Part shown: in pieces, positions 1,860-18,654 of the stretch
Layout: each line of letters opens with the position of its first letter
Position numbering within the stretch: position 1 is the stretch's first letter
NCBI GenBank assembly: GCA_024689605.1
Contig: JAILDD010000119.1
Span: forward strand, 1 to 18,654
DNA from: Lachnospiraceae bacterium
Lineage (GTDB): Bacteria; Bacillota_A; Clostridia; Lachnospirales; Lachnospiraceae
Reading direction: 5' to 3'
DNA length: 18,654 bases
Position numbers and translations under genes: made by a program
Notes under the pieces: model-generated
What the model was told of the DNA's origin: nothing
Database searches by the model: none
The model's input: only the letters and a program-made list of their open reading frames with translations

Positions 1860-1889
1860 AATAATTCCCCCCTGGAGATCATTTTGATG

Positions 1890-2642
1890 TTATGCGTTTA
1901 TCCAGTCCCAAAATTCCTTTTTGCCAACGGTGTTGTCCTGGTTATTCTTGTTTGACTTGTATGTTGTATTTTTATTTGCTATCAGGTAGTACTGAAGACG
2001 CATATCCTTAAGCGGTCCGGACAAAACCACATTATTACCGTTGAAGGTGAGGCCGTTGCCGGATGTGTCCTTTCGTGGACTTGCAGTGGTCCATTCTCCA
2101 TTATAGTAATACCAGACAGGAGCATCTTTTGTTTCAATATAAACAGCGTAATACACGGTATATTTTTCAAAAGTATCTGTCTGTCTTCCTTTGCTGTCCC
2201 CGGGTCTGTTGAAGTTTGTCTGATTACTTCCTACTGCCACCATAAAGAAATAGGGGTCTACGCCGGCCATTGAAAGGATATCGCTTCCGAAATCGCTGTA
2301 GACCACATCCAGGTCGCCGTTATTGCTTTTGCATGTTCCCTTCTCTTTTCCTGTTCCTTCATCCTTATCGCGAACCCCGACGGTAAGTCCGGAAACGATG
2401 GGGTAATTAGCAGCAACTTCCCCGTTTAAACCGTACTGCTCCACAAACTTAGCCTGTGCAGCATCTTTGCAGGCCTTTGCATTTGACAGGTATTTTCCTT
2501 CCCTTGCCTTATCTATATAGCCGAGCAATGTTGGAATCAGTATGGCTACAAGTATAGCCAGTATTACCAGTACTACTATGAGTTCTACAAGGGTAAAGCC
2601 ATTGTTATTATCCCTGCATACTCTTTTTCTTATATTATTCAT
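1890..2642 (-). CDS. Type IV prepilin-like protein with N-terminal methylation motif
   Basis: The N-terminus is a short basic leader ending in Gly15, followed by FTLVE (Phe16 as mature residue 1, Glu20 as mature Glu5) and a roughly 20-residue hydrophobic helix. This is the prepilin peptidase cleavage and methylation motif of type IV pilins and type II pseudopilins. The product is 250 residues. Its globular part is rich in Asn, Tyr, Gly and Lys and has two Cys (58 and 104) that could form a disulfide. I chose the ATG at 2642 because a GGGGGAG site lies 10 bases upstream and the leader then has the usual 15 residues. ATG 2648 is nearly equivalent. An in-frame ATG at 2702 would add 20 residues and leave only a very short mRNA leader. 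No pilus assembly ATPase, platform protein or prepilin peptidase is in the window, so whether it forms a pilus or a pseudopilus cannot be told here. It is the first gene of a unit with the serpin lipoprotein. Confidence 0.88.
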   Translation of the reverse strand: MNNIRKRVCRDNNNGFTLVELIVVLVILAILVAILIPTLLGYIDKAREGKYLSNAKACKDAAQAKFVEQYGLNGEVAANYPIVSGLTVGVRDKDEGTGKEKGTCKSNNGDLDVVYSDFGSDILSMAGVDPYFFMVAVGSNQTNFNRPGDSKGRQTDTFEKYTVYYAVYIETKDAPVWYYYNGEWTTASPRKDTSGNGLTFNGNNVVLSGPLKDMRLQYYLIANKNTTYKSNKNNQDNTVGKKEFWDWINA

Positions 2643-2724
2643 GATCATCAAACTCCCCCGAGCATATGAAATATCCGCAACATCTACAATGTATATCGGC
2701 ACACATCAGAAATAATTAACGTAA

Positions 2725-2753
2725 AGTATATCGCAATCTGCTGATAATATCAA
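2725..2753 (-). promoter_or_regulatory. Sigma-A type promoter for the prepilin-serpin unit
   Basis: On the minus strand TTGATA (2753-2748) and TATACT (2730-2725) are separated by exactly 17 bases. Each hexamer matches five of six consensus positions. Transcription would start near 2718, giving a leader of about 75 bases to the ATG at 2642. Confidence 0.7.
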
Positions 2754-2763
2754 ATAGGGCAGT

Positions 2764-2793
2764 TTGTTTTCGGATGTTTCTTTATGGTATAAT
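2764..2793 (+). promoter_or_regulatory. Extended -10 promoter for the kinase operon
   Basis: TATAAT at 2788-2793 is a perfect -10 and is preceded by TGG, giving the extended TGnTATAAT form. A weak -35 (TTGTTT, 2764-2769) lies 18 bases upstream. Transcription would start near 2800, about 77 bases before the first kinase start codon. It is divergent from the prepilin promoter, with the -35 elements only about 10 bp apart. Confidence 0.7.
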
Positions 2794-2814
2794 ATTTAAT
2801 CGGGGTATTATACC
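2786..2814. repeat. 9-bp inverted repeat spanning the -10 and start site
   Basis: GGTATAATA at 2786-2794 recurs as its exact reverse complement TATTATACC at 2806-2814, with 11 bases between. The right copy is also the core of a local palindrome, GGGTAT-T-ATACCC (2803-2815). The left copy is the -10 element itself and the right copy covers the early transcribed region. It could be a repressor operator, or it may simply place a second -10 on the opposite strand; I see no good -35 for the latter. Confidence 0.4.
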
Positions 2815-2876
2815 CTGCAGGCAAAATGGCTTTTAAGGTCTAATACAGATTTTATGCACAATAATGGCGTACAGGC

Positions 2877-5681
2877 ATGAAAACATCCGGCGGACAGAAA
2901 AGCAAAAATAAAGAAGAAACCAGGCTTACCATCAGGAACGTCATCGGTACCGTTCTGGTGATAGTATTTTTCGCGGGCATCATCATACTGTACTACAGCA
3001 TGCTTTATAACGAGAAGCGTGAGAATATCATCAGGGAAGGCGAACTGGCTGCCATGCAGTCAGCAGAGCAGCTGGATAAATATCTTTCCACAAACATAGA
3101 TTCCGTAAAGCTTACGGCTTATAGTCTGGACGATATGATAAGGGAAAAGCGTAGTGATGAAGAGATACAGGTTTTCCTGGTGGATCAGTCCACTGCCATA
3201 AAGAGCGCAGTCATGGAGAATTCCACCGGTCTGTACGGTTATATAAACGGCAGGTTTTTCAGCGGCACCAACTGGGTTCCGCCGGAAGACTACGATCCCG
3301 TGATGCGTCCCTGGTATACGAATCCCATGGAGCATCCCGGCGAGATCACTATACTTGATCCTTACGTGGATGTTCAGACGGGAAATGTGATGCTGGCTCT
3401 TGGAAAGACTCTCTGCGACGGGGTTAGTGTTATTTCTGTGGATGTGTCCCTGGATCAGGTGCAGAAACTTACGGAGAATGCAGTCAGAAGCGGTTATTCC
3501 GATGTGGAAATGATACTTAATAACAAAGGTACGGTGATAGCTCATTCGGAACCCTCTGAGAATGGCAAAAACTATTATGAAGAAAGCGGCAGTCTCGGTG
3601 CTGATATTGTCCGCCATCTGGATACAATGGAAGGAAATTCCTTTGAATTCAAATACAATGGGGCTTATTACATTGTGTATGTTGCTGAAATCCAGAACGG
3701 CTGGTACTGTATTTCGGTCAAGGATGCCACAAGGGTTTTCGGTTCGCTGAACTGGATTCTTTTTGCAACTATTTCAGCGGTCATAGTGACGATAATCATA
3801 ATCGGTATCATCATGGGACGGTCCGGAAGGTATATTCATCTGTCAGCCAGTGCCATTGCCGCAAATGAAGCAAAATCCGCCTTTCTTTCAAATATGTCAC
3901 ATGAGATAAGAACTCCCATAAATGCGATCCTTGGTATGAACGAGATGATACTCAGGGAAAGCGATGACAGACAGATAGTTTATTATTCCGAAAATATCAG
4001 AACTGCGGGCAAAAATCTGCTGGGACTCATCAATGACATTCTTGATTTTTCGAAGATCGAGGAAGGAAAGCTTGAGATCAATCCTGTGGAATACGATCTT
4101 TCCGCAGCCATAAGCGACCTGGTTAACATGGTCCATTTAAGGGCTGATAAAAAGGGACTGCTGTTCAGGCTTGAGATCGACCATGACATACCAAAACTCC
4201 TGGAAGGTGATGAGCTCCGTGTAAAACAGGTTATAACGAATCTGCTGACAAATGCCATTAAATACACGGAAAAAGGCAGCGTGCTGTTATCTATCGGATA
4301 TGAAAAGGCGGGGGAAGGTGAAGATTCTATCCTTCTTAAAGTTTCAGTTAAAGATACCGGCATAGGTATAAAGGAAGAGGATCTTTCAAAGTTGTTTTCC
4401 AAATTTGAGCGTATCGAGGAAAGCCGCAACAGGAATATCGAGGGCACAGGCTTAGGCATGAATATAACAGCCAATCTCCTTGAAATGATGGGCTCGGAGC
4501 TTATGGTAGAGAGCATATACGGAGAGGGATCCTGCTTTAGTTTTGACCTGAAGCAGAAGGTAAAGGACTGGACAGCTATCGGTGATTACGAGGCTTCATA
4601 CAGGGAACACCTGGAACAGAAGGAACGGTATAAAGAACGCTTCATTGCGCCGGATGCCCGTATACTTGTGGTGGATGATAATCCCATGAACCTTATAGTC
4701 TTTAAGAGCCTGGTCAAGCTGCTGGGAATGCGTGTTGATACGGCAAATGATGGCGTAGAGGGTGTCGCACTTTCCAAGGAAAACAGATATGACATGCTTT
4801 TCTTAGACCATATGATGCCTGTGAAGGATGGCATAGAGACTCTCCGTGACATAAAGGAAGATGAGGTGAATCCTAATTCGGCTGTTCCGGCAGTATGCCT
4901 GACAGCTAATGCGGTATCGGGAGCCAGGGAAAAGTATCTTGAGGCAGGTTTTGATGATTATCTTTCTAAACCCATAGACTCTGAAGAACTGGAGAACATG
5001 CTTGTCCGCTATATTCCGGCTGAAAAGATAATCGTGTCCAGAGGAAGCCATGAAGAAGCTGAACAGAAAAAAGATAAAATACTGTCTGTTCCTGACGATA
5101 TGGTTGAACTGGCGGCAATTAATGTGGATGTACTAAAGGGAATAAACAACAGCGGGGATGAACAGTCATACCGTGTGCTCTTAAAGGTTTTTTACGATTC
5201 CATTGAGGAAAAGGCAGAGGAGCTGGATCACTATTATGATATCGGCGATCATAAGAGCTACACGATAAAGGTGCATGCGCTGAAAAGCTCTGCACGGATC
5301 ATCGGTGCAGCAGAATTCGGTGAAAAAGCACAGAAACTTGAGGATGCCGGAAAGAACGGTGACATAGTCTATATCCGCGGACACCACAGCAGCTTTATGG
5401 AGGAATACAGGAATTTTGAGGGTATCCTGAGAGACATCGTAGGAAACGGAGAAAACACTTCTGATAAGCCCGAGGCTGATGAAAGCATAATGGCTGAAGT
5501 ATTTGAAGAGATAAGGGCTGCTGCAGAGGAAATGGACTGTGACCGGCTGGAAGGTGTTTTTGAGGAAATGGATGCTTACAGAATACCGCAGAAGGATGCG
5601 GAATTATATGAAAAGCTTAAGGATGCATATGCACAGTATGATTACGATGGTATAGTGAAACTTTTATATGAGGGGAACTAA
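2877..5681 (+). CDS. Hybrid sensor histidine kinase: dCache-HisKA-HATPase-REC-Hpt
   Basis: This 934-residue membrane kinase has TM1 at about 21-43, an extracellular double-Cache domain at about 44-290 and TM2 at about 291-313. HisKA follows with H342 in SHEIRTP, then HATPase (N459, D493-TGIG, GTGLG 523-527), a receiver (D600/D601, acceptor D644, T676, K698) and an Hpt domain (H800 in HALKSS). A tail of about 70 residues ends the protein. The Cache domain has Y139-x4-R144-x-W146-Y147 and D189, matching the amino-acid-binding motif described for dCache_1 sensors, so an amino-acid ligand is a reasonable inference. All relay residues are present (His-Asp-His), so it can pass phosphate to another receiver. 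The ATG is the first after an in-frame stop at 2862 but has only a weak ribosome site, which suggests modest translation. It heads the operon; the next gene starts 3 bases after its stop codon. Confidence 0.95.
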   Translation: MKTSGGQKSKNKEETRLTIRNVIGTVLVIVFFAGIIILYYSMLYNEKRENIIREGELAAMQSAEQLDKYLSTNIDSVKLTAYSLDDMIREKRSDEEIQVFLVDQSTAIKSAVMENSTGLYGYINGRFFSGTNWVPPEDYDPVMRPWYTNPMEHPGEITILDPYVDVQTGNVMLALGKTLCDGVSVISVDVSLDQVQKLTENAVRSGYSDVEMILNNKGTVIAHSEPSENGKNYYEESGSLGADIVRHLDTMEGNSFEFKYNGAYYIVYVAEIQNGWYCISVKDATRVFGSLNWILFATISAVIVTIIIIGIIMGRSGRYIHLSASAIAANEAKSAFLSNMSHEIRTPINAILGMNEMILRESDDRQIVYYSENIRTAGKNLLGLINDILDFSKIEEGKLEINPVEYDLSAAISDLVNMVHLRADKKGLLFRLEIDHDIPKLLEGDELRVKQVITNLLTNAIKYTEKGSVLLSIGYEKAGEGEDSILLKVSVKDTGIGIKEEDLSKLFSKFERIEESRNRNIEGTGLGMNITANLLEMMGSELMVESIYGEGSCFSFDLKQKVKDWTAIGDYEASYREHLEQKERYKERFIAPDARILVVDDNPMNLIVFKSLVKLLGMRVDTANDGVEGVALSKENRYDMLFLDHMMPVKDGIETLRDIKEDEVNPNSAVPAVCLTANAVSGAREKYLEAGFDDYLSKPIDSEELENMLVRYIPAEKIIVSRGSHEEAEQKKDKILSVPDDMVELAAINVDVLKGINNSGDEQSYRVLLKVFYDSIEEKAEELDHYYDIGDHKSYTIKVHALKSSARIIGAAEFGEKAQKLEDAGKNGDIVYIRGHHSSFMEEYRNFEGILRDIVGNGENTSDKPEADESIMAEVFEEIRAAAEEMDCDRLEGVFEEMDAYRIPQKDAELYEKLKDAYAQYDYDGIVKLLYEGN

Positions 5682-5683
5682 AG

Positions 5684-7024
5684 ATGCAGGAATGGATCGC
5701 AGTAGTAGATGATGAAGCATTGAGCCTTACAAATGCAAGAAAGCTGCTGGCCTCGCAGGGGATGAAGGTGTCCTGTATGAGGTCAGGGCAGGATATGCTC
5801 CGGTTCATGGAAAAGAACGAGCCGGATCTTATTCTTTTGGACATTATGATGCCGGAAGTGGACGGCTTTGAGGCCTTCAGGCTCCTCAGGGAGCAGGAAA
5901 AAAAGCTGGGCAGGCTTCCGACACCTGTGATATTTCTTACCGGCGAGGAAGATGCGGAAGCGGAAAAACGAGGCCTGTCGGAGGGCGCATCGGACTTCAT
6001 AAGGAAGCCGTTTGATAAGGAGATACTGGTCAGCCGTATCAATAATACGGTTAAGAACAGTCGTATGATCGAAAATCTGGCAGAAGAGGCCTCTACTGAT
6101 AAGCTTACCGGTTTTTTAAACAAAAGCAGCGGAACAGAGAAGATTTCTGACATGTGTGAAAAAAATACAGGTGCCCTTATAGTGCTGGACCTTGACAGCT
6201 TTAAGCTGGTAAATGACCTGTACGGACATGATATGGGTGACCGGGTACTGGGGGCCTTTGCGGACATAGTAAGACGCAGCATCAGGGGGAGTGACATTGC
6301 CAGCAGGATAGGCGGAGATGAGTTTATGCTCTTCATAGACGGTATGAATGAGGTAAGCGGCATCGATGATCTGATAAAGCGGCTCAATGACCTTCTGACA
6401 TCCGAAGCTGAAAAGCTTATGGGAGAGGATTTCGGCATTCCCCTTGGAATATCTGCGGGGGTGGTTTTTGTTCCCGAATTCGGTACTGATTATCCCATAC
6501 TGTTCCAATATGCGGATAGCAGCCTGTACAGGGTGAAGCAAAATGGAAAACACGGATATGAAATATACAGTTCGCATATTGAGGATACAGAGGAGACCGG
6601 TAATGATCTGGGCAGGGAACTGATACGCGTTACCAGGCTGGTTGAAGAGCGCGGTGCAGGGAAGGGTGCCATGGTATTAGGTCAGGATGCTTTTTCGGTT
6701 AATTACCGTTTGATAATCCGCTTCTTAAAAAGATATAAGTCAAAAGCCTGCAAGATACTTTTTGCTGTTGATGTAAAAGAGGATATGCAGATAGCTGATG
6801 CAATTAACTGTTTTGAAGAGATACTTCAGGAAAACCTTCGCAGAACGGATATCATTTTCAGAAGCAGGCAGAACCGCTTTTTCCTTCTTCTTCCGGAAAT
6901 GGGTCAGGAAGCAGTGGATATGTTCGTTGGACGTATTATGACGAAATGGGAAAAAACGGAATTTGCCGCATTGTTTGAATTAAGATATATATCTGAAAAT
7001 ATTGATTTTAGTGAGGAAAGATGA
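5684..7024 (+). CDS. Response regulator diguanylate cyclase (REC-GGDEF-degenerate GGDEF)
   Basis: The first 120 residues or so are a canonical receiver with D9/D10, acceptor D53, T86 and K108. A GGDEF domain follows (about 135-296) with an intact GGDEF at 210-214, metal-site D169 and an inhibitory I-site RGSD at 201-204 exactly five residues upstream. It should therefore be an active c-di-GMP synthase subject to product inhibition. Residues about 310-446 look like a second GGDEF-fold domain that has lost the motif: RQNRFF (395-400) sits where GGDEF would be, followed by LLLPE. Such a domain might bind nucleotide or serve in dimerisation. The protein is cytosolic, with no membrane segment. An AGGGG ribosome site lies 8 bases before the ATG, and its stop overlaps the next gene's ATG (ATGA). 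It is the only recognisable output protein in the operon, so it is the likely target of the Hpt domains of the neighbouring kinases. Confidence 0.93.
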   Translation: MQEWIAVVDDEALSLTNARKLLASQGMKVSCMRSGQDMLRFMEKNEPDLILLDIMMPEVDGFEAFRLLREQEKKLGRLPTPVIFLTGEEDAEAEKRGLSEGASDFIRKPFDKEILVSRINNTVKNSRMIENLAEEASTDKLTGFLNKSSGTEKISDMCEKNTGALIVLDLDSFKLVNDLYGHDMGDRVLGAFADIVRRSIRGSDIASRIGGDEFMLFIDGMNEVSGIDDLIKRLNDLLTSEAEKLMGEDFGIPLGISAGVVFVPEFGTDYPILFQYADSSLYRVKQNGKHGYEIYSSHIEDTEETGNDLGRELIRVTRLVEERGAGKGAMVLGQDAFSVNYRLIIRFLKRYKSKACKILFAVDVKEDMQIADAINCFEEILQENLRRTDIIFRSRQNRFFLLLPEMGQEAVDMFVGRIMTKWEKTEFAALFELRYISENIDFSEER

Positions 7025-9093
7025 CAGTTAAGCAGGGGGGCGTAATGGATCAGAAAAAAAATGAAAGATTTCTTTTGACCTTGTTAACACCCGGCGGAAT
7101 AGGACTTGCGGTTGTGAGTATCCTTATGGGCTGGGAATTCTGGGTGCCGCCGCTGCTCATTATCGCAGCGGTATTCCTGTGGATCATGCATATCACGGAA
7201 CAGCCGTCACCGGTGATCCGAAAGGTCTGTTATTTTCTTTATGCTGTTCTGGCAGTTTTTTATCATGGCGTTCACGAAACCAGTATGTTTGATATATCAG
7301 TTGTAATCCTTCTTGCGATGGCAGGTTTTTCATTTCTGAACAGTATATACATGCTGAATACTTTCCTGGCGGAATTTTCTATCCTGCTGTTCATTCAGAT
7401 AGTTCTTGCTGTAAGCCATTCGACATATGATTTCGACAAACTTGATAATGCAAGAATAGTACTGCATATCTGTGTGGTCCTGCTGGTATATTATTGCTGC
7501 GTGCGAATAGTTAAGGACAGGGCTGAAAGGATAAAGTCAGAGGCGGAAAAAGATGACAGGATCGAAGCTGTGGATGCTGATATGGAAGACTTCCTCACCA
7601 ATATATCGCACGAACTTCGTACCCCTGTAAATGTAGTAAACGGCATGTCTGAGATGCTCATGAAAAAAGATGTGGGATCGGAAGCAGTTTCCATTAAGAC
7701 GGCAGGCGTAAGGCTGGCTTATCAGATAGAGGATATCCAGGATTATACGGAGTGCAAGCGAAACAAGGTTATCCTTGAAGAAATTGATTATATGAGCACA
7801 TCCCTGATTAATGATGTGGTAACCAGCTTCCGGCTATTTGAAAATGAGAAAAGACTGGATCTTATTGTGGATCTGGATCCCATGGTTCCGACAAGGATGC
7901 ACGGTGATGTAAAAAAGATCCATAAGATATTCCGGCATCTTCTTGAAAATGCCGTGAAATTCACCAGGCGTGGCGGCATTTATGTAAAAATGTTCACGGA
8001 AAAAACGGATTATGGAGTAAATCTGTGCATTGAAATGACGGATACCGGTATCGGTATGGACAGAAAATCCATAGCCTCCCTGTCTCAGGGCATGTATCAG
8101 GTCAATAAAAAAAGAAACAGAAGTTCCGGCGGAATAGGTCTGGGTCTTTTTATAGTGTATGGCTTTGCACATCGGATGGGCGGGTTTGTAAAGATTGAAA
8201 GTGAACCCAAAAAAGGAACTACGGTGCGGTTAACACTGCCTCAGAAGGTTACTGATAAAACTCCCTGCCTTATGCTTTCCGGAACTTTTTCCGGGGATAT
8301 CCTTTTCCATGTCAGGATGAACAAGTACATGGTTCCGCGGGTGCGTGATTTTTACCGTTACATGGCGACCAATCTTGCAACGGGTATACATGTTCCTCTT
8401 TATTCCACTCAGAGCGTTAAGGAAATCGAACATATGAGGAAAAAACTGAATGTCTCATATATATTTATGGGACAGGAAGAGTATGAGGAAAATTCTGAGT
8501 ATTTTGATGAACTCAGCATGGGTGATGTGGTGGTGGCCGTATCCGCTGCTTCGGGATTTAAGCCTGATTCCGGAAGCAGGGTTCTGGTGATGCCTAAACC
8601 GCTTTATGCCTATCCAATAATCAAGGTCCTGAATGAGGGAGTGGATGCCGGAAATCTCGAAAATATCGCTAAGAGTGAAAGACCGGTATTTAAGAATGTA
8701 AGAGCCCTGGTTGTAGACGATGAACCTATGAATCTCGTAGTGGCAACAGGTCTTTTCAGCGATTACGAAATGGTGATCGAAACTGCCGGAAGCGGACGGG
8801 AAGCTATCAGCAAATTCAGAAGTAATGATTATGATGTTGTATTTATGGATCATATGATGCCGGAGATGGATGGCGTTGAGGCTATGAAGTGGATCAAGGC
8901 TATAGCGGCCGAACAGAACAAAAAGATCATAGTCATCGCCCTTACTGCCAATGCTGTTTCCGGAGCAAGAGAAATGTTTATGAAGGAAGGCTTTGATGGG
9001 TTTATAGCTAAGCCCATCAATATCGCGGATTTTGAAAGAGTGATGCTGCTTGAACTTTCCGGAACAGTAATTGGGAAGGGAGGTCAGGAGTGA
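7021..9093 (+). CDS. Multi-pass hybrid histidine kinase with pseudo-receiver and receiver, no Hpt
   Basis: The N-terminal 165 residues contain about six hydrophobic segments and no large extracellular domain, so the signal may be sensed within the membrane. HisKA has H197 in SHELRTP. The HATPase has N310, D341-TGIG and GIGLG at 371-375. Residues about 413-540 have receiver-like size and spacing but lack the acidic pair and the acceptor Asp, so I call it a pseudo-receiver. A true receiver follows (about 558-680): D566/D567, acceptor D610, T642, K664. There is no Hpt domain, so onward transfer would need an Hpt from another protein, and both other kinases here have one. The ATG at 7021 overlaps the upstream stop (ATGA), has GAGG four bases upstream and suggests coupled translation. 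An in-frame ATG at 7045 behind AGGGGGG is an equally good alternative. The gene ends at 9093, overlapping the next start as TGATG. Confidence 0.93.
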   Translation: MTVKQGGVMDQKKNERFLLTLLTPGGIGLAVVSILMGWEFWVPPLLIIAAVFLWIMHITEQPSPVIRKVCYFLYAVLAVFYHGVHETSMFDISVVILLAMAGFSFLNSIYMLNTFLAEFSILLFIQIVLAVSHSTYDFDKLDNARIVLHICVVLLVYYCCVRIVKDRAERIKSEAEKDDRIEAVDADMEDFLTNISHELRTPVNVVNGMSEMLMKKDVGSEAVSIKTAGVRLAYQIEDIQDYTECKRNKVILEEIDYMSTSLINDVVTSFRLFENEKRLDLIVDLDPMVPTRMHGDVKKIHKIFRHLLENAVKFTRRGGIYVKMFTEKTDYGVNLCIEMTDTGIGMDRKSIASLSQGMYQVNKKRNRSSGGIGLGLFIVYGFAHRMGGFVKIESEPKKGTTVRLTLPQKVTDKTPCLMLSGTFSGDILFHVRMNKYMVPRVRDFYRYMATNLATGIHVPLYSTQSVKEIEHMRKKLNVSYIFMGQEEYEENSEYFDELSMGDVVVAVSAASGFKPDSGSRVLVMPKPLYAYPIIKVLNEGVDAGNLENIAKSERPVFKNVRALVVDDEPMNLVVATGLFSDYEMVIETAGSGREAISKFRSNDYDVVFMDHMMPEMDGVEAMKWIKAIAAEQNKKIIVIALTANAVSGAREMFMKEGFDGFIAKPINIADFERVMLLELSGTVIGKGGQE

Positions 9094-12000
9094 TGGATAA
9101 CAAAAGTTTCATAAAAAGTCTGATCAGTGTTATAAAGGATCCGGAGAGGGATTTTTCTGAGCGTGTTTACCTTGGACTTTCCATAATATCGGAAATAGTA
9201 GTTTTTCTGGCACTTATCGGGGATCTTGTTATGAATGAGAATCCCCTGGAGACCATTGTACTCATAGCTACACTTATCTTTGTCCCGACAATAGATTATA
9301 TAGGACTTAAGATAAATAAGCTTGGTCCTATAACAAAGATCACTGTTATAGCCCTTATATTCCTGATATTGCCGGGACTGTTTTTCTTTGGCGGCGGACT
9401 GAATGGCGGCGGTGTATTGTGGTTTATTTTCGGCTTTATCTATGTCGGACTTGTGCTCAAGGGAAACTGGCGAAATGTGATGCTGGTTTTGCTGGTCATT
9501 GAATCGCTTGTATTTTATTTCCTGAACTATTATTATCCGGGGCTGGTATATGAGCATTCAAATGAAATGTTCTATGTTGATTCTTATCTTTCCCTTGTGT
9601 TGGTGGGAATCATTTGTTTTGCCATGACCTGGTTTCAGAACAGGCTGTATAAAGGCGAAAATAAGAGGGCACGGGATGCGGCGGACAGAGCTGAAGAACT
9701 GACACGTGCGCAGAACAGGTTCTTTTCAAGCATGAGCCATGAGATACGCACTCCGATCAATTCCATTTTAGGACTGAATGAGCTGATATTGCGTGATCCG
9801 GATGCGACGGATGAAATTGTCAGGGATGCAAATGATATACAGGGATCCGGCAAGATGCTGCTTGCGATAATTAACGATATCCTGGATTTTTCCAGGATGG
9901 AAGCCGGTGGAATGGACATTGTCCCGGTGGATTACCGCATAGCTGATATGCTTTCGGAACTGGTGAATATGGTATGGCACCGTGCAAATGAAAAAGAACT
10001 GAAATTCAACGTGATAGTGGATCCGGATGTGCCCTCAGTTCTGTATGGTGATGAAGTACGTATCAAGCAGGTGGTACTTAATCTGCTGAATAATGCAATA
10101 AAGTATACATCCTCCGGAACAGTTGAACTGCGCGTGGAAAGTGAGGCAAAGAGTGACGATATAGTTGAACTGACCATTTCGGTAAGCGATACCGGCATGG
10201 GTATCAAGAAAGAAGCCCTGCCTTATCTGTTTGATGCATTCAAGCGTGTTGATGTGGAGAAGAACCGCCATATAGAAGGTACCGGTCTGGGACTGTCTAT
10301 AGTTAAACTGCTGACAGATCTTATGGGCGGAACAGTCAATGTGAACAGCGTATACGGAGAGGGTTCCACATTTACTTTTTCCGTTATGCAGGGAGTGTCG
10401 GATGCAACAGCGGTCGGTGAAGTGAATATCCATGATCAGAGCACATCGGTACGGGCAAAGTATGAGTGCAGTTTTCATGCGCCCGAAGCACGCATTCTTA
10501 TCGTAGATGATAATGAGATGAATCTTGAAGTAGAGAGCAGGCTTCTGGCAGATTCGGGGGTTTCTATCGATAAGGCATTAAGCGGCAGGGAGGCGCTGGA
10601 TCTCTCGCTGAGGTATCATTATGATGTGATCCTTATGGATCATCTTATGCCGGAGCTGGATGGCATAGAGTGCCTGGAGCGCCTGCGGCATCAGTCGGGA
10701 GGCTTAAACCGTAATACACCTGTGGTAGTCCTTACTGCAAATGCCGGGGGTGAAAACCGCGAATTATACAACCGTGCAGGTTTTGACGGACATCTGGTAA
10801 AGCCTGTATCCGGAGATGCATTGGAAAAAGTGATGATAAGATTTATCCCCCGGGAAAAGCTTATCATAAGCAGCAGCCGAATGACGGGAAGCGGTGAGGA
10901 TTTACACGCTACATCAAGCCATTCCGGCAAAATGCCGGTTATAATAACGGCTACCAGCATGTGTGACCTTCCGAATTCCATCATCAGGAAGCAGGGGCTT
11001 TCGATCATTCCTTTTATGATAAGGACTGAGGAAGGAGTATTTAAAGATGGCGTGCAGATGGGCTCAGATGAGCTGATACGCTATATCAGTTCGGGAAAGA
11101 ATGCTGAGACATCCCCGCCGGATGAGGCGGCTTATACTGAATTCTTTGCGTCTAACCTTAGGCATGCCCATCATCTTATACATATTGCCATCACCACCGG
11201 CATGAGTGCGGACTACAGACGGGCTTCGGAAGCCGCAAAGGCATTTGATAATGTGACAGTCATTAACTCGGAGAGTATCTCATCAGCAACAGGAATTCTG
11301 GTGCTGATAGCACAGAAGCTTGTGCAGATGGGACTTTCCGTTGATGATATCGTAGAGGAGCTTGAAACGGTAAAACATCGTCTGAAGTGCAGTTTTGTAA
11401 TAAATCAGACGGAATATATGGCTAAAACGGGGATTCTAAGCAGCAACCTGGATCGTATGGCACGTGCCCTAAATCTGCACCCCTGCATCAGGGTATCTGA
11501 TGACAGGACGAAGATCGGCGGAATATGGATGGGTGACAGGATGCGGGCATACAGGAAATATATTTCCAAAGCCTTTCCTGTTGATGTAATACCGGATCCG
11601 GAGGTTGTATTTATAACCTATGTGGACATACCGGTTGATGTGCTTGTATGGGTAAAGGAAGAAGTCAGCAGGCATGCATATTTTGAAAGGGTAATCTTTA
11701 AGCAGGCATCTGCGGCAGTATCTACAAACTGCGGCCCCGGATCCTTGGGCATACTTTATTTTGTTAAGTCCAATAAATCGTATAACTTAGGATCATATTT
11801 TACGGGGGAAACCGTCCTTGAGAATGAACAGGTGGATGATGGTTTTGATTTTGATGTGGGACTTGATGATAGTTATAATGCGTATGAGGAAGGCACGAAT
11901 GAAGATGTTCAGTCAGATGCTGGCGAAAGCCGGAATGAAAAAAAGGAAACAGCGTGGTATGACAGCATAGACGGAATAGATGGGGATATTGCTATCCGGA

Positions 12001-12524
12001 ACAGCGGCTCGGAAGACGCGTTCAAAACTGTCCTTCAGATATTCCATGATTCAATAAGCAATAGGACTGCTGAGCTTGAGAGGTTCTTTGATGAGGGGGA
12101 CTGGAAGAATTATACGATAAAGGTTCATGCGCTTAAAAGTTCTGCAAAGCTTATAGGGGCAATGGAATTTTCGGAAAAAGCACGTCTGCTCGAAATGGCA
12201 GGAAAAGAAGATAATATTGATTATATCAGGGCTAATAATGCGGCATTTCTTGAGGAATATCAGACATATAAGTCTTTGCTCAGTCCCTTTATGAAAAAGG
12301 AGGATGATACTGACAAACCGGTGGCGGATGAATACCTGATGCAGGGAGCATACGAGGGGCTGGCTGAAGCTGCTGCGGCCATGGACTGCGATGCTATGGA
12401 TCAGATCTTTGATGAACTTAAGGATTATTCGATACCCGAAAGTGAAAAAGAAAAATTTGAAGCCATTCTGGAAAAGGCAGGCCAGTACGATTATGACGGT
12501 GTTTTGGAAGTACTGAAAGGTTAG
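9093..12524 (+). CDS. Hybrid histidine kinase with embedded DegV domain and Hpt
   Basis: This 1143-residue protein has about six membrane segments in 26-182 and a short coiled linker. HisKA (H216, SHEIRTP), HATPase (N334, D366-TGMG, GTGLG 396-400) and a receiver (D472/D473, D516, T548, K570) follow. Residues about 614-895 match the DegV/EDD fold: DLP near 625, IIP at 638-640, the ETSPP motif (T673, S674, P675), TTGMS at 701-705, SATG at 731-734 and CGPGSLG at 880-886. DegV proteins such as FakB bind a fatty acid. Two usual DegV features look altered: the GGRI loop reads KTGIL (778-782), and the His before GPG appears to be N879. An acidic linker leads to an Hpt (H1012 in HALKSS) and a tail like that of the first kinase. 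ATG 9093 is preferred over GTG 9090 because GGGAGG lies 9 bases upstream. I infer a lipid- or fatty-acid-responsive phosphorelay kinase. Confidence 0.93.
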   Translation: MDNKSFIKSLISVIKDPERDFSERVYLGLSIISEIVVFLALIGDLVMNENPLETIVLIATLIFVPTIDYIGLKINKLGPITKITVIALIFLILPGLFFFGGGLNGGGVLWFIFGFIYVGLVLKGNWRNVMLVLLVIESLVFYFLNYYYPGLVYEHSNEMFYVDSYLSLVLVGIICFAMTWFQNRLYKGENKRARDAADRAEELTRAQNRFFSSMSHEIRTPINSILGLNELILRDPDATDEIVRDANDIQGSGKMLLAIINDILDFSRMEAGGMDIVPVDYRIADMLSELVNMVWHRANEKELKFNVIVDPDVPSVLYGDEVRIKQVVLNLLNNAIKYTSSGTVELRVESEAKSDDIVELTISVSDTGMGIKKEALPYLFDAFKRVDVEKNRHIEGTGLGLSIVKLLTDLMGGTVNVNSVYGEGSTFTFSVMQGVSDATAVGEVNIHDQSTSVRAKYECSFHAPEARILIVDDNEMNLEVESRLLADSGVSIDKALSGREALDLSLRYHYDVILMDHLMPELDGIECLERLRHQSGGLNRNTPVVVLTANAGGENRELYNRAGFDGHLVKPVSGDALEKVMIRFIPREKLIISSSRMTGSGEDLHATSSHSGKMPVIITATSMCDLPNSIIRKQGLSIIPFMIRTEEGVFKDGVQMGSDELIRYISSGKNAETSPPDEAAYTEFFASNLRHAHHLIHIAITTGMSADYRRASEAAKAFDNVTVINSESISSATGILVLIAQKLVQMGLSVDDIVEELETVKHRLKCSFVINQTEYMAKTGILSSNLDRMARALNLHPCIRVSDDRTKIGGIWMGDRMRAYRKYISKAFPVDVIPDPEVVFITYVDIPVDVLVWVKEEVSRHAYFERVIFKQASAAVSTNCGPGSLGILYFVKSNKSYNLGSYFTGETVLENEQVDDGFDFDVGLDDSYNAYEEGTNEDVQSDAGESRNEKKETAWYDSIDGIDGDIAIRNSGSEDAFKTVLQIFHDSISNRTAELERFFDEGDWKNYTIKVHALKSSAKLIGAMEFSEKARLLEMAGKEDNIDYIRANNAAFLEEYQTYKSLLSPFMKKEDDTDKPVADEYLMQGAYEGLAEAAAAMDCDAMDQIFDELKDYSIPESEKEKFEAILEKAGQYDYDGVLEVLKG

Positions 12525-12530
12525 GACTTG

Positions 12531-14054
12531 ATGGGAATAGTAGTAAAGATAAATGATGCGGTAAACGGATTTGCCTGGGGAACCTTTGGCCTTTCGCTGC
12601 TTTTGGGAACGGGTATCATATGCAGTCTGATCACGGGATTTTTTCAGATAACGCATATAATACACTGGTGGAAGCATACCTTCGGGGTGATTGATGGAAA
12701 AGGGCGTATCATTAACGATGCCGGTGCATTGTCACCCTTCAGGGCATTTTGTACTGCTTTGTGTGCCACTATCGGAACAGGAAATATTGCCGGTGTATCC
12801 ACTGCAATCTGTGTCGGCGGCCCCGGAGCGGTATTCTGGATGTGGGTCGCTGCTTTTTTCGGCATGATGGTAAAGTATTCCGAAAATCTGCTGGGTGTAT
12901 ATTTCAGACGCAGGAATGTGGACGGGGCGTGGTCCGGCGGCCCCATGTATTACCTTCAGGACGGCCTGGGCGGAATAAAGCATTGCAAAAAATTAGGCAG
13001 GATTCTGGGCATATTGTTTTGTGTTTTTACCGTTCTGGCTTCCTTTGGTATAGGCAATATGGGGCAGATAAACAAGATCACCATAAATGTACAGTCGGCT
13101 TTTTTATCTGATGTGGATACCGGAACATTCTGGGGCATTGACAATGCCAACTGGGCTATTGGCGTTTTTCTTATGTTTGCGGTTGGATTGATACTTTTGG
13201 GCGGATACAGAAGGCTTGCGGCTGTTTCGGAAAAAATAGTTCCGGTCATGACTGTTGCTTATGTGGCAGGCTGTATCGTGATGATCACCATGGATATTGA
13301 AAGCGTGCCGGCAGTCCTTGCTTCAATATTTAAGTTTGCGCTGGGACCGGATGCTGTGAAAGGCGGAGCGGCAGGAACAGCAGTACAGATTGCTTTCAAT
13401 ACGATCAAGAACGGCTGCAAGCGCGGTGTGTTTTCAAACGAAGCCGGTCTTGGATCGTCTGTTATGGTTCACAGCACAAGCTGTAACAGAGAACCTGTAC
13501 GTCAGGGAATGTGGGGCATAGCAGAGGTTTTTCTGGACACTGTTGTGATATGTACCATGACGGCGATAGTGGTATTAAGCTCGGGGGCTATTGACCTCAA
13601 TACAGGACTTACTGCAGAAGGCGTGAATGATGCAACCCTTGTGGCCCAGGCTTTCGGAACGCATTTTGGACGGTATGGCGAGTGGTTTGTCGTGGCAGCC
13701 GTTACGCTTTTTGCATTCACTACGGTAATGGGATGGTCATATTACGGTGCAAAGGTAACCGAGTATCTATTCGGAGTGAAAGTGGCAAAACTTTACCGCA
13801 TAATATTTGTTGTACTGATAGTATTCGGCGCCATAATGGAATCCAATCTGGCGTGGGATATTTCGGATACATTTAACGGACTTATGATGATACCGAACCT
13901 CATTGGGCTGCTGGTACTGTCACCGTTAATAATAAAACTTACGCGTAATTATACTGAAAGAAGGATTAATGGAAAGGAAACGGAACCGATGCTTTCCTTT
14001 GATCCTGATATACAGAAGGAAGCTGCAAGGGTGGTTCAAAAGGGAGACGATTGA
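12531..14054 (+). CDS. Alanine/glycine:cation symporter, AGCS (AlsT/DagA-like) family
   Basis: The 507-residue product is full length for the family, with about ten or eleven hydrophobic segments. Family motifs are clear: GTGNIAGV (82-89) followed by GGPGA, SGGPMYYLQDGL (135-146) and FSNEAGLGSS (301-310). Members import alanine, glycine or related small amino acids with Na+ or H+. The substrate cannot be fixed from sequence. I start at the ATG, which has AGGA four bases upstream; an in-frame TTG at 12528 is less likely. The gene lies 6 bases after the DegV kinase stop, so it is probably co-transcribed with the signalling genes. Together with the amino-acid motif in the first kinase's Cache domain, this suggests the operon couples amino-acid sensing to uptake. 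The C-terminal 35 residues are polar and cytosolic. Confidence 0.94.
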   Translation: MGIVVKINDAVNGFAWGTFGLSLLLGTGIICSLITGFFQITHIIHWWKHTFGVIDGKGRIINDAGALSPFRAFCTALCATIGTGNIAGVSTAICVGGPGAVFWMWVAAFFGMMVKYSENLLGVYFRRRNVDGAWSGGPMYYLQDGLGGIKHCKKLGRILGILFCVFTVLASFGIGNMGQINKITINVQSAFLSDVDTGTFWGIDNANWAIGVFLMFAVGLILLGGYRRLAAVSEKIVPVMTVAYVAGCIVMITMDIESVPAVLASIFKFALGPDAVKGGAAGTAVQIAFNTIKNGCKRGVFSNEAGLGSSVMVHSTSCNREPVRQGMWGIAEVFLDTVVICTMTAIVVLSSGAIDLNTGLTAEGVNDATLVAQAFGTHFGRYGEWFVVAAVTLFAFTTVMGWSYYGAKVTEYLFGVKVAKLYRIIFVVLIVFGAIMESNLAWDISDTFNGLMMIPNLIGLLVLSPLIIKLTRNYTERRINGKETEPMLSFDPDIQKEAARVVQKGDD

Positions 14055-14184
14055 AACAGGATGGCCGGATTATTTGGAAAAATACCGCGTACCGCAGACG
14101 GAGGAAGAATTGTTTTCAAAGCTGAAGGAAAGCTCATCAAATTATGATTATGAAATGATAGTTTCGCTGTTCAGGAACAGATAA
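14053..14184 (+). pseudogene. Remnant of a kinase C-terminal tail (post-Hpt region)
   Basis: Starting as the symporter ends, but in the +1 frame relative to it, about 40 codons encode a sequence that ends in YDYEMIVSLF before a TAA at 14182. It aligns with the last 40 residues of the first kinase (YRIPQ, then ELYEKLK, then YDYDGIV) and more weakly with the DegV kinase (YSIPE, YDYDGVL). Shared positions include YR-PQ, EL-KLK, YDY and IV-L. No plausible start codon or Hpt precedes it except an overlapping ATG at 13969 inside the symporter. I read it as the 3' stump of a third kinase or Hpt gene lost by deletion. A small independently translated tail protein is possible but less likely. Confidence 0.55.
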
Positions 14185-14212
14185 CTGACAGAGAAGGATA
14201 TAAATCTAATAT
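14185..14212 (+). promoter_or_regulatory. Possible weak promoter for the dual-receiver gene
   Basis: CTGACA (14185-14190) and TAATAT (14207-14212) are separated by 16 bases, with five and four consensus matches. It lies in the 62-base gap between the kinase-tail remnant and the next gene. It could give separate expression of the dual-receiver gene, but the match is modest. Confidence 0.25.
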
Positions 14213-14246
14213 CAGAGAAGCTTAAAAAGCGCAGTAAGGAGGAAAT

Positions 14247-15026
14247 ATGAACGAAGCGGGAAAAGAAATCGCAATACTGATGTTCCAGTACAGTGTAGTA
14301 GTAAAGGGCATAGAAAGAAAACTGTCCGAAATGGAATATTCGGTAACGACAGTCACGGAACACCTTGAGGATGAGGCAAAGCGCCTGGCAGGACGGATTG
14401 CTTTGTTTATACTGTATCTTCCCGGGGACATAATGGACGATCCTCTTAAGAAGAAAAGGCTTCATCAGATAGTTGAGGCAGCAGTTGCCGCAAATCAGAA
14501 GATGTTTGTTATAGGAGAGGCAAAGTATCAGGATGATCTGATGGGTGAGATTTCCGATCTCAGGAATTACAGCTGGTTAAACAGGCCCGTAGATATGAAG
14601 GTGCTGGAAAAGACTGTTACGGATGAGCTGGAAAGGTCAGAGGCTGTATCCGTAAAGAAAAGAATATTGATAGTGGATGACGATCCTTCCTATGCAAAAA
14701 TGGTACGGGAATGGATCAGGGAAAAATATCGCGTGGATATAGTCACTGCGGGCATGCAGGCCATTACTTTCCTTGTGAAGGTTCCTGAGGACGAAAAGGT
14801 AGATCTGATCCTTTTGGATTATGAGATGCCTGTGGTTGACGGGCCTCAGGTGCTGCAGATGCTCAGACAGGAAGAAGCAACGGCACATATTCCCGTCATA
14901 TTCCTGACCGGTATCGGTACGAAGGAAGCGGTGTCCCGTGTTATGAGTCTGAGGCCCGACGGATATATTCTGAAGTCAACGACAAAGGCTGAAATCCTGG
15001 AGACTCTGGGAAAGAAGCTTCACTGA
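14247..15026 (+). CDS. Dual-receiver protein without output domain (pseudo-REC-REC)
   Basis: The 259-residue soluble protein has two receiver-sized halves. The C-terminal half (about 138-259) is canonical: D144/D145, acceptor D191, T221 and K243. The N-terminal half (about 5-128) has alternating strands and helices of receiver size and ends with NRPVD where receivers have the conserved Lys-Pro (R113, P114). It lacks the acidic pair and acceptor, so it is probably a pseudo-receiver. There is no DNA-binding, GGDEF or enzymatic domain. Such proteins act by protein contact or as phosphate sinks in relays. A strong AAGGAGG site lies 4 bases before the ATG. As the last signalling gene on this strand it is a candidate partner or sink for the Hpt domains upstream. 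The pseudo-receiver half recalls the one in the second kinase, though I cannot measure similarity. Confidence 0.88.
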   Translation: MNEAGKEIAILMFQYSVVVKGIERKLSEMEYSVTTVTEHLEDEAKRLAGRIALFILYLPGDIMDDPLKKKRLHQIVEAAVAANQKMFVIGEAKYQDDLMGEISDLRNYSWLNRPVDMKVLEKTVTDELERSEAVSVKKRILIVDDDPSYAKMVREWIREKYRVDIVTAGMQAITFLVKVPEDEKVDLILLDYEMPVVDGPQVLQMLRQEEATAHIPVIFLTGIGTKEAVSRVMSLRPDGYILKSTTKAEILETLGKKLH

Positions 15027-15043
15027 CAGAAAACGATTTCCAC

Positions 15044-15072
15044 TTGAATTTTAGAGCGATTGCTAATAAAAT
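15044..15072 (+). promoter_or_regulatory. Promoter for the lacI-glgP unit
   Basis: TTGAAT (15044-15049) and TAAAAT (15067-15072) are separated by exactly 17 bases, with four and five matches to the sigma-A consensus. Transcription would start near 15079, about 29 bases before the regulator's ATG. No clear intrinsic terminator separates it from the dual-receiver gene ending at 15026. Confidence 0.6.
15051..15066. promoter_or_regulatory. Candidate LacI-type operator in the promoter spacer
   Basis: TTAG at 15051-15054 and CTAA at 15063-15066 form a 16-bp interrupted palindrome (TTAG-N8-CTAA) filling the spacer between -35 and -10. LacI-family proteins bind short palindromes of this size, and occupancy here would block RNA polymerase. 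The arms are only 4 bp, so chance is a real alternative. Confidence 0.3.
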
Positions 15073-15107
15073 ATTTTAGGTGAAAAAATTCTTTTTGGGG
15101 TTTGGGA

Positions 15108-16127
15108 ATGGTTACGATAAAGGATGTTGCGGACAGATCGGGTGTTGCCATATCGACCGTATCTAAGGTTCTGAACGGCTATCCGAATGTCAGCGAGAAA
15201 ACAAAGCAGGCGGTGAATGATGCAATACAGGAATTGCACTATGTGCCTAATGCCATTGCTGCCGCTCTTTCTTCCAAGACGAGGATACGTATTGCACTGG
15301 TCATAAATTCAGTGGAACAATCCCAGTCCATAGATGAACTGGACATGCGTTATCTTTCAGGAGCACTGGAAGAAGCTAAAAAACAGGGACTGACAGTACG
15401 GACATATTTTTATTCCATGCTGGATGACCTGACTGCTGATGAGATCATAGGAGAGTTTCAGTCCTTAGGCATAGGAGCTGTGATATTCTTTGGCTTTAAC
15501 AAAGATGACAATGTGCTTAAGGATGTTGTAAATAGAAAATGTTTCAAGACGGTGATCGTGGATTCACCTATTGCGGAGGACGGGATATCGTCTGTCTGGA
15601 TCGACCAGAAGCAGGCTCAGTTTGATGTGGCTGAAGCAACTTTTCCCCAGGTCAGCGGAGACCGGGTTCTTTATATCGCAGGTAAAAAGAATGCTTATGT
15701 GACAGAGGGACGCATCAGTGGAATAAAGGAATTTGCAAAAAAGCATAAGCTGAAGCTGAAGATAGAATATGCTGATTTCAGCGAAAGAAAAGCCCGGGAG
15801 ATCACCTTCAGGGAAGGTACTGATACTGATATGATCGCCTGTGCATCGGACCTTATGGCAATTGGTGCGATGTTTGCGCTGAAAGAGATGGATGTATATC
15901 ATCCGATATGCGGTTTCGACGGGATAGGGCTTATGTCCTATGCTGCACAGAAGATGCATACCGTGAAGCAGGATTTTGCCGGAATAGCGGCAGAGTCTGT
16001 GAGGGAAGCAGTAAGGCTTCTGCAGGGAGAAGAAGGAAGAAATATAATCATGCCTCATGAACTGGCCATGCCTGAGTACGAGGATGTACTGCGCAGGGAA
16101 GAGGAATGGGGCAAGAATACTTTATAA
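15108..16127 (+). CDS. LacI-family transcriptional regulator
   Basis: The 339-residue protein starts with the typical LacI helix-turn-helix: TIKDVADRSG, then STVSKVLNG, with the hinge helix near 45-55 (YVPNAIAAAL). A periplasmic-binding-protein-like effector domain fills about 60-330. The hinge reads AIAAAL where many family members have a basic residue after AIA. I use the ATG at 15108, which puts the helix-turn-helix at the usual position; a TTG at 15102 would add two residues. The ribosome site is poor (GGGG 7 bases upstream), so the protein may be made at low level. It lies 24 bases before glycogen phosphorylase with a shared promoter, so it most likely controls this unit in response to a maltodextrin or related sugar. 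The ligand is inferred from context only. Confidence 0.93.
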   Translation: MVTIKDVADRSGVAISTVSKVLNGYPNVSEKTKQAVNDAIQELHYVPNAIAAALSSKTRIRIALVINSVEQSQSIDELDMRYLSGALEEAKKQGLTVRTYFYSMLDDLTADEIIGEFQSLGIGAVIFFGFNKDDNVLKDVVNRKCFKTVIVDSPIAEDGISSVWIDQKQAQFDVAEATFPQVSGDRVLYIAGKKNAYVTEGRISGIKEFAKKHKLKLKIEYADFSERKAREITFREGTDTDMIACASDLMAIGAMFALKEMDVYHPICGFDGIGLMSYAAQKMHTVKQDFAGIAAESVREAVRLLQGEEGRNIIMPHELAMPEYEDVLRREEEWGKNTL

Positions 16128-16151
16128 AGGAAGAGGACAAAGGAGATAAAA

Positions 16152-18476
16152 ATGCACACTTTACCTAACATGCAGAGACAGGTTTTAGAGGGAAGACTTG
16201 AACAGCAGCTTAATGATTTTGCAATGAAGTATTTCTCAAAAAGCTTTGAGGAATGTGATGACGCACAGTGTTATGACTGTCTGCTTCATATGACCAAGAC
16301 CCTTATGACCACCAGCGATGTCATAAACGGAGAAAAGAAACTTTATTATATATCGGCAGAGTTCCTTATCGGAAAGCTTCTTTCCAACAATCTGATCAAT
16401 CTGGGACTTTATGACAGGGTAAAGGAGCTGCTTGCATCTAAGGGCAAGGATCTGGCGAGGATAGAGGAGATGGAGCCGGAACCTTCTCTCGGAAACGGTG
16501 GCCTGGGAAGACTTGCGGCATGTTTCCTTGACTCTATCGCAACTCTTGGCATACCGGGAGATGGCATAGGGCTTAATTATCATTTCGGACTTTTTAAGCA
16601 GGTGTTCGAGGATCATCTTCAGATGGCAGAGAAGAATCCCTGGATAGAAAAGCATTCATGGCTTCATAAGACTGATACCCGTTTCAAGGTAAAGTTCGGT
16701 GACAGGGAAGTGGTTTCCAGATTATACGACCTGGATGTCATCGGATATGATAACGGAATAAACAAGCTTCATCTTTTTGATGTGGAATCCGTTGATGAAT
16801 CCATAGTAAAGGAAGGCATTGATTTCGATAAAGAAGACATTGAAAAGAACCTTACCCTTTTCCTTTACCCGGATGATTCCGATGAGGCCGGAAATCTTTT
16901 AAGGATATATCAGCAGTACTTTATGGTAAGCAACGCTGCCCAGCTTATACTGCAGGATATGAAGGAGCATGATTATGACCTGCACCATATGGATGAGCAT
17001 GCGGTCATTCAGATAAATGATACCCACCCGACTATGATCATCCCCGAACTCATAAGGGTTCTTGTGAATGACAAGGCTTTCACCATGGATGAGGCAATAG
17101 AAGTAGTGTCAAAGACCTGCGCTTATACCAATCATACCATTCTGGCTGAGGCTCTTGAAAAGTGGCCCCTTGAGTATCTTGAGAAGGTTGTTCCCCAGCT
17201 TGTGCCCATAATAAAAGAACTGGACAAGCGGGTTGCTGCTAAATACAAGGACAAAAAGGTTCAGATCATTGACAAGGATAAAAAGGTGCATATGGCACAT
17301 ATCGACATCCATTACGGCTTCAGCGTAAACGGTGTTGCTGCCATACATACTGAGATACTTAAAAATACAGAGCTTAACAGCTTTTATAAGATCTATCCCG
17401 AGAAGTTCAACAATAAGACAAACGGCATCACCTTCAGACGCTGGCTTCTTTCCTGCAACCATCCTCTGTCGGATATGATCACGGAGCTCATAGGAGAGGA
17501 TTTCAAGAAAGATGCCGATGAGCTTGAGAAGCTGCTTCAGTATAAAGAAGATGATGCAGTGCTTTCACGTCTTGAAAATATCAAGAAAGAAAATAAGAAA
17601 GTGCTTGCCGCATACATAAAGGAGCATGAAGGCGTCGAGCTTGATCCCGAATCGATTTTCGATATACAGATCAAGAGACTTCATGAGTATAAGAGACAGC
17701 AGATGAACGCCCTGTATATCATTCACAAATATCTGGAGATAAAAGGCGGAAAAAAGCCCGTAAGGCCTATCAGCTTTATCTTCGGAGCGAAGGCTGCACC
17801 TGCGTATGTCATTGCAAAGGATATCATACACCTGCTGTTAGTACTTCAGGAGATCATCAATAACGACCCTGATGTGAATAAGTACATAAAGCTTGTAATG
17901 GTTGAAAACTACAATGTCAGCTATGCGGAGAAACTTATCCCTGCGTGTGATATTTCCGAGCAGATTTCCCTTGCCAGCAAGGAGGCATCCGGAACCGGCA
18001 ATATGAAGTTCATGCTTAACGGTGCCGTTACCATAGGAACAGCCGACGGTGCAAATGTTGAGATCAGGGATCTGGTAGGACCCGAGAATATCTACGAGTT
18101 CGGCCTGGACAGCGACACAGTAATAAAGCATTATGAAGACGCTGATTATGTTTCAAAGGATTATTACAAGAAGAGTCCTGTGATAAAAGAGGCTGTGGAT
18201 TTCATAGTGGGCAAGCAGGCTCTGGCTGTCGGTAAGAAAGAGAACCTCGAAAGGCTTTATAAGGAGCTGCTGAATAAGGACTGGTTCATGACCCTTATAG
18301 ACCTTGAGGATTACATCGAGACCAAGGACCGTATGTTTGAGGATTTCGAGGACAGGAGAAAATGGCAGCAGATGAGTCTTACAAATATCGCAAAGGCCGG
18401 CTTCTTCTCGTCTGACCGTACCATAGCAGAGTACAACAGGGATATCTGGAAGCTTAAGAATGAAGACAATATGTAA
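16152..18476 (+). CDS. glgP: Glycogen/maltodextrin phosphorylase
   Basis: The 774-residue protein belongs to glycosyltransferase family 35. It phosphorolyses alpha-1,4-glucan ends to release glucose 1-phosphate using pyridoxal phosphate. Clear family motifs are [37 protein letters not shown] and [10 protein letters not shown]. The cofactor signature [10 protein letters not shown] contains the PLP-binding lysine at K619. The length is within the bacterial range, a little shorter than the E. coli enzymes, and no key motif is missing. It is cytosolic. AGGAG lies 6 bases before the ATG, indicating strong translation. It follows the LacI regulator in one unit. Whether it acts on stored glycogen (GlgP) or imported maltodextrin (MalP) cannot be told from sequence alone; the adjacent sugar-type regulator is compatible with either. 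Confidence 0.96.
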
Positions 18477-18528
18477 TTGCCTTGTATACCCAAAAGCATG
18501 AGCAGGAGGCGGGGATTGAATGAAAACT

Positions 18529-18625: not shown

Positions 18626-18654
18626 GCCACTTGGACGATTGGTAAAATAAAAAA

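Follow-up and report, generated by a model that had tools for sequence, protein, structure and literature searches.

A DegV-bearing hybrid histidine kinase of Lachnospiraceae and its conserved partner kinase: a possible lipid-responsive phosphorelay with a single Hpt domain per pair

DegV/FakB proteins have a known role as carriers supplying fatty acids to FakA, and the stretch of DNA considered here, called the window throughout (the whole of positions 1-18,654, forward strand, of contig JAILDD010000119.1, assembly GCA_024689605.1, Lachnospiraceae bacterium), encodes a hybrid histidine kinase into which a domain of this family is built. In FakB1 of Staphylococcus aureus, Thr62, Ser95 and His270 belong to the network that grips the fatty-acid carboxylate, catalysis requires Arg173 and FakA binding requires Arg205, and mutation of the carboxylate network destabilises FakB (PMC8892158). 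Judged by analogy of design, the nearest working analogue is the RpfC/RpfG system of Xanthomonas, in which a membrane hybrid kinase with receiver (REC) and Hpt domains answers the diffusible signal factor (DSF) fatty acid through a 22-residue N-terminal periplasmic sensor segment, and in which the regulator is a cyclic di-GMP (c-di-GMP) enzyme (PMC5391125). The window resembles this arrangement in that its hybrid kinase pair overlaps a REC-GGDEF gene; in contrast to RpfC as described there, it has a cytosolic DegV domain, a second kinase, and an Hpt that changes chain among relatives. Kinases of the TorS, BarA and ArcB type share the same HisKA-HATPase-REC(-Hpt) core and gave the best NCBIfam scores among the best 25 of 136 families, the kinase models all falling below their cut-offs, whereas the window is set apart by the DegV insertion and the conserved partner kinase. 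A precedent for regulatory use of a related fold is offered by the coactivator DhaQ and the kinase subunit DhaK (2iu4, 2iu6). No functional description of a DegV-kinase fusion was found in the full-text literature searched, outside which most subscription journals lie, in keeping with a preliminary description of this DNA that knew of none; in four papers that mention DegV, the text around it deals with standalone DegV or DAK2/DegV proteins and not with this fusion (PMC3146951, PMC9912610, PMC3533761, PMC3091722). On balance, the evidence leans modestly towards a phosphorelay of two kinases and one Hpt, in which DegV is a tethered lipid-binding domain and which is often encoded beside c-di-GMP enzymes.

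The DegV kinase gene (9093-12524, plus strand, with a GTG at 9090 as an alternative start) encodes a protein of 1143 amino acids, ordered by Pfam and open reading frame (ORF) analysis as transmembrane part (TM)-HisKA-HATPase-REC-DegV-Hpt. The N-terminal membrane part, comprising six hydrophobic segments in a Kyte-Doolittle scan (residues 29-177; 9177-9623), is followed by HisKA (residues 206-272; 9708-9908), in which the motif marks His216 as phospho-acceptor (codon at 9738), by HATPase_c (residues 319-431; 10047-10385), and by the receiver, Response_reg (residues 468-579; 10494-10829), with Asp516 as its motif-assigned phospho-site (codon at 10638). Beyond a flexible linker (residues about 594-611; 10872-10925) stand the DegV/FakB-fold domain (residues 618-890; 10944-11762) and the Hpt (12006-12269; Pfam residues 980-1041), whose phospho-site by motif is His1012 (codon at 12126). 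The HisKA His, the N, G1 and G2 boxes, the receiver Asp and the Hpt phospho-His are all present in the protein. The preliminary description had read a DegV domain between a complete kinase-receiver core and an Hpt, and both the Pfam domains and the predicted fold agree with it: PF02645 matches with an E-value of 3.4e-35 (122.2 bits against a cut-off of 27), TIGR00762 scores 137.8 bits against a cut-off of 99.7, and the AlphaFold2 model of the domain, at a predicted local distance difference test (pLDDT) score of 92.8, has a FakB-like EDD fold that Foldseek aligns over the whole domain with FakB2 (4x9x) at an E-value of 1e-25. A chance motif match is ruled out by the agreement of profile, fold and family.

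Relatives of the protein are numerous. A protein search returned 319 clusters, and all 120 listed carry DegV, HATPase and receiver domains; a genome scan yielded 61 loci, many from rumen samples, labelled mostly Lachnospiraceae or Butyrivibrio, with a minority of Oscillospiraceae, Eubacterium, Ruminococcus, Saccharofermentans and unplaced Clostridia. Two forms occur, a long one of about 1150 amino acids with an Hpt and a short one of about 895 in which DegV is the last domain. Among 45 members scanned with Pfam (39 short, 6 long), DegV and receiver were found in 45, HisKA and HATPase in 44 each, and Hpt in 5, the carriers being unnamed in that scan, alongside five long members known to have the domain. 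Genome surveys at E<=1e-60, whose figures are lower bounds because scoring was confined to the best candidates of each genome, found at least 59 fused rows (frame of at least 700 amino acids; 12 of the 59 reach 1100 or more) in at least 45 of 299 sampled genomes from the family of G001, itself one of the 299 and the source of locus L001; across 391 genomes of the class, at least 27 match, at least 9 of these with such a frame. Occurrence on so many contigs rules out a one-off fusion or an assembly artefact. In an 87-row tree with midpoint root, a branch with 100/100 support separates the 62 fused DegVs from the 24 standalone ones, and in a larger tree 102 fused rows still stay together (100/100). 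The nearest standalone group in the 87-row tree consists of four HCGPG-type DegVs (L065, L066, L069 and L071), which also have the top fused-profile scores among standalone DegVs (195-208 bits, the next being 143) and have no kinase directly upstream. Close to one standalone DegV of this group (L138, about 734-7849), a by-eye reading of sequence starts suggests fabD-, fabG-, fabF- and fabZ-like genes. Separately, DegV matches lie in open frames of 580 and 413 amino acids at G338:C44:64819-65658 and G612:C7:27170-28015, which may be other fusions.

The departure of the fused domain from FakB is seen in its key residues. The FakB2 equivalents of FakB1 positions 62, 95, 270, 173 and 205 are taken here to be 61, 93, 266, 170 and 202, at which 4x9x has T, S, H, R and R. 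Beyond the shared fold, the window domain retains Thr673 and Ser705 at the Thr and Ser of the carboxylate network, whereas Asn879 stands in place of His266, so that the network is not reproduced in full; Ile781 occupies the site of the catalytic or latch Arg170, and Met813 that of the FakA-docking Arg202. The earlier suspicion of altered loop and head-group residues is borne out. Residues were then counted in 22 long rows (window included), 120 long homologues that overlap with the loci counted separately, 40 short rows, 40 further loci and 24 standalone DegVs. At His266, His is found in 21/24 standalone proteins against 0/22, 0/120, 0/40 and 0/40 of the fused sets in that order, where Asn is found in 22/22, 120/120, 36/40 and 36/40, against 0/24 of the standalone proteins. 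Similarly, Arg at column 202 occurs in 21/24 standalone DegVs and in 0/22, 0/120, 0/40 and 1/40 (L123) of the fused sets, no fused row having Lys there; the register of this column adjoins an alignment gap and is bridged by the nearest standalone DegVs, which read Arg-Gly against mostly hydrophobic-Gly in the fused domains. Arg at column 170 is universal in the standalone set (24/24), absent from the long rows (0/22), and present in 5/120 homologues, 10/40 short rows and 17/40 further loci. Ser at column 93 is found in 22/22 long rows, 119/120 homologues, 8/40 short rows, 21/40 further loci and 23/24 standalone proteins, and column 61 holds Ser or Thr in 22/22 long rows. As a side observation, two Butyrivibrio loci (L055 and L057) have Ile-His-Gly-Pro-Gly where most other fused DegVs have Asn-Cys-Gly-Pro-Gly, and retain the latch Arg.

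On these comparisons, the joint loss of the docking Arg and the His is read here as a sign that the domain stopped serving FakA when the fusion arose or shortly afterwards, and the loss of Arg170, by the same alignments, is later and partial, the catalytic Arg being replaced in the window and retained in part of the family. Because no fused row has the His and a single one keeps the docking Arg, the domain, though derived from FakB, probably no longer belongs to the FakA pathway; a DegV kinase acting as a working FakB is ruled out by the residue changes. Standalone DegVs are present in 7/7 relative genomes (25 matches, of which 24 were used, L090 falling under the 50-bit cut), as are FakA-like_C matches in FakA-sized frames, and the FakB job would therefore be covered elsewhere. 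The acyl-phosphate that had been offered as a possible input is unlikely on the same grounds, namely that the docking Arg survives in a single fused row and that the window has lost the catalytic Arg as well. As to what the domain holds instead, a fatty acid or a similar acyl ligand is rather likely. That the ligand is not a fatty acid, but some other acyl compound or a small metabolite held in a head-group site rebuilt around the common NCGPG motif, is a minority possibility of about one chance in several.

The second component of the system is the gene immediately upstream (7021-9093, plus strand), which encodes a partner hybrid histidine kinase of TM-HisKA-HATPase-REC layout without Hpt, with His197 and Asp610 as its predicted phospho-sites, and overlaps the start of the DegV kinase. 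Such a partner lies directly upstream on the same strand in 52/52 loci with readable upstream DNA (of the 61), at stop-to-stop distances of -37 to +157 nucleotides; the nine uncounted loci comprise eight with short upstream DNA (L008, L012, L014, L022, L046, L048, L049 and L051) and one with a broken DegV ORF (L054). A profile-based rule likewise places an upstream partner in 36/40 further loci, these being 40 of the 59 fused rows of the 299-genome survey that are not in the first set and whose DegVs are 34-55% identical to it. The kinase cores of 53 partners, window included, form one clade (support 100/99) in a tree that also contains the 53 DegV kinases of these pairs and 22 further kinase ORFs, with 5 unpaired DegV kinases among the latter. 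The His, N, G1, G2, receiver Asp and receiver Lys positions are intact in 53/53 pairs in both kinases, and across the eight catalytic positions checked per kinase the sole deviation is a receiver Thr to Ser change in 2 partners; a pair of pseudokinases is ruled out by these intact positions. Moreover, the divergence of the two members is correlated, with r 0.91 among 19 long pairs and r 0.93 among 34 short pairs, values that include shared species history and that 0/2000 permutations equalled in either group.

The pair very probably acts as one relay, and the two proteins may well form a physical complex. The conservation of the pairing also lends itself to another explanation, in which DegV binds no ligand and serves as a structural or protein-docking domain joining both kinases: pairing is as conserved as the DegV domain itself, the His266 column is never His in fused rows, and the Ser93 and Arg170 columns vary. 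Against this stand the retention of the fold at high confidence with its resemblance to lipid-bound DegVs, the Ser at column 93 and the Ser or Thr at column 61 in every one of the 22 long rows, and the destabilisation of FakB by network mutations (PMC8892158), in the light of which the Asn may be a compensating change; the docking explanation is accordingly held to be improbable, and lipid binding by the tethered DegV is preferred.

Within the pair, the Hpt is single and mobile. A local Hpt model built from 7 seeds, six of them from proteins tested, scores the window Hpt at 129 bits, the window domain being one of those seeds. Across 53 pairs including the window, it finds an Hpt on the partner only in 34, on the DegV kinase only in 18, in neither in 1 and on both in 0, that is, one Hpt in 52/53 first-set pairs. 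The partner Hpt of L056 is weak (19 bits), and the pair with none, L007, has a short DegV-kinase ORF, with a full-length near twin in L008. The 36 new pairs follow suit: 30 have the Hpt on the partner, 5 have it on the DegV kinase, 1 has it on neither protein (L114, whose ORF runs off the contig) and 0 have it on both. Of the remaining four loci in the further set, L112 has a partner split over two ORFs, the second with the Hpt, L134 combines a broken DegV-kinase ORF and a partner without Hpt with an adjacent separate REC-Hpt protein (L134:8123-9097, minus strand), and L101 and L127 have a different architecture. Since a single Hpt may sit on either protein and never on both, it belongs to the pair and not to the chain. 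The origin of the window-type Hpt is left unresolved by an Hpt tree of 90 columns, and L100 supplies another Hpt-bearing DegV kinase, which a weakly supported branch separates from the main long clade.

This distribution bears directly on the idea, advanced in the preliminary description, that DegV gates His-Asp-His transfer between the receiver and the Hpt within one chain. The domain order that the idea requires is true for the window and its long relatives, in which DegV lies between receiver and Hpt; in the short form, DegV is the last domain, and the short pairs rule out that position as a general rule. The local Hpt model places the domain on the partner alone in 34/34 first-set short pairs, 30/36 further pairs likewise have it on the other protein, and the Pfam scan found an Hpt in only 5/45 members. 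In L114 (L114:5410-8304), DegV (26-296) lies at the N-terminus before the TM helices, with HisKA at 518-583 and the receiver at 780-893, and in the window the tether between REC and DegV is disordered. An in-chain gate is therefore very unlikely, and given the disordered linker (pLDDT <50), the low predicted template modelling score (pTM) of the REC-DegV model (0.64) and the varying position of DegV among members, the domain in the models is best seen as a tethered module and not as a rigid in-chain gate. Taken as a whole, the preliminary description was right about the fusion and the changed residues, was not borne out as to the gate as a general mechanism, and had overlooked both the second kinase and the limit of one Hpt in each pair.

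In the proposed mechanism, the DegV kinase and the upstream kinase would form one membrane phosphorelay, in which both autophosphorylate and each phosphorylates its own receiver. The single Hpt, on whichever partner it resides, would be shared by both receivers, gather their phosphate and hand it to a response regulator, often an adjacent c-di-GMP enzyme. DegV, as a FakB-derived cytosolic lipid-binding module, would pick up its ligand, a fatty acid or some similar acyl compound, from the membrane; once loaded, it would shift the ratio of kinase to phosphatase activity or alter how phosphate moves through the pair. That DegV is an input and not an output is considered fairly likely. The reverse direction, in which the phosphorylated receiver makes DegV load, release or pass on lipid, draws on the HK-REC-DegV order (HK, histidine kinase), the one seen where an effector follows its receiver, on the terminal place of DegV in the short form, and on the six-TM part, which is already a candidate sensor. 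Its best known lipid destination, however, is gone with the FakA-docking Arg, replaced in all fused rows but one, the REC-DegV interface was modelled without confidence, and the N-terminal DegV of L114 is in an input-like position, which is counted for an input role; an output role is thus thought unlikely.

Several points nevertheless weigh against the tethered-input relay. The place of DegV C-terminal to REC in nearly all members is the usual one for an output domain, and the relative placement of the two domains in the model is not confident. With the carboxylate-side His gone and Ser93 variable, binding of a fatty-acid carboxylate may have been lost, and the persistence of Arg170 in the short and further sets counted above means that the departure from FakB has not been uniform. 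In two loci (L101:7210-9837 and L127:7243-9837), DegV is fused to a kinase that resembles the partner, not the DegV kinase, and gives no match to HisKA or REC. The share of species history in the pair correlations counts on the same side, as does the lack of any c-di-GMP gene in 14/52 loci (flanks of up to 6 kb, some short).

The link with c-di-GMP is drawn from the neighbouring genes. In the window, a REC-GGDEF response regulator (5684-7024, plus strand), the likely output, overlaps the partner gene, and the genes ahead of the DegV kinase (2877-5681, 5684-7024 and 7021-9093) overlap or abut one another. Within the flanks (up to 6 kb), 38/52 loci have a gene for a GGDEF or HD-GYP protein, and in 29/52 such a gene directly adjoins the pair in the same orientation, which is the further point of likeness to RpfC/RpfG; GGDEF itself is found in 29/52. 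Seven relative genomes hold 256 GGDEF matches in about 22.5 Mb, a density that predicts about 6 chance occurrences over the 497 kb of flanking DNA; the loci are related, so this is no independent test. It is reasonably likely, on this basis, that c-di-GMP is the main output. The first gene of the run (2877-5681, plus strand) encodes a dCache hybrid kinase with its own Hpt and stands beside some relatives only, whereas the Na+:alanine symporter family protein just downstream (12528-14054, plus strand) and a 259-aa receiver protein (14247-15026, plus strand) are common beside window-type relatives. On the minus strand, the window further holds a lipoprotein-like ORF cut by the window end (3-1859), with serpin (PF00079, 5.2e-77) and AhpC/TSA-type thioredoxin (PF00578, 9.6e-11) domains, and a prepilin-like protein with an N-terminal methylation motif (1890-2702; PF07963).

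In its fullest form, the interpretation is that a FakB-type carrier was captured as a cytosolic lipid receptor within an obligate two-kinase relay with a mobile single Hpt, coupling membrane fatty acids to c-di-GMP in gut and rumen Clostridia; this is put forward tentatively, at a little under even chances. A fatty-acid sensor would be physiologically sensible in the rumen because the rumen bacterium Butyrivibrio fibrisolvens suffers toxic effects from unsaturated fatty acids (PMC2836310). If true, a carrier fold inside a sensor kinase would connect the fatty acids of the membrane directly, at the molecular level, with second-messenger control. The one-Hpt rule, for its part, provides a natural experiment on the sharing of a relay between two hybrid kinases. 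The kinase family may thereby let cells read their membrane fatty acids.

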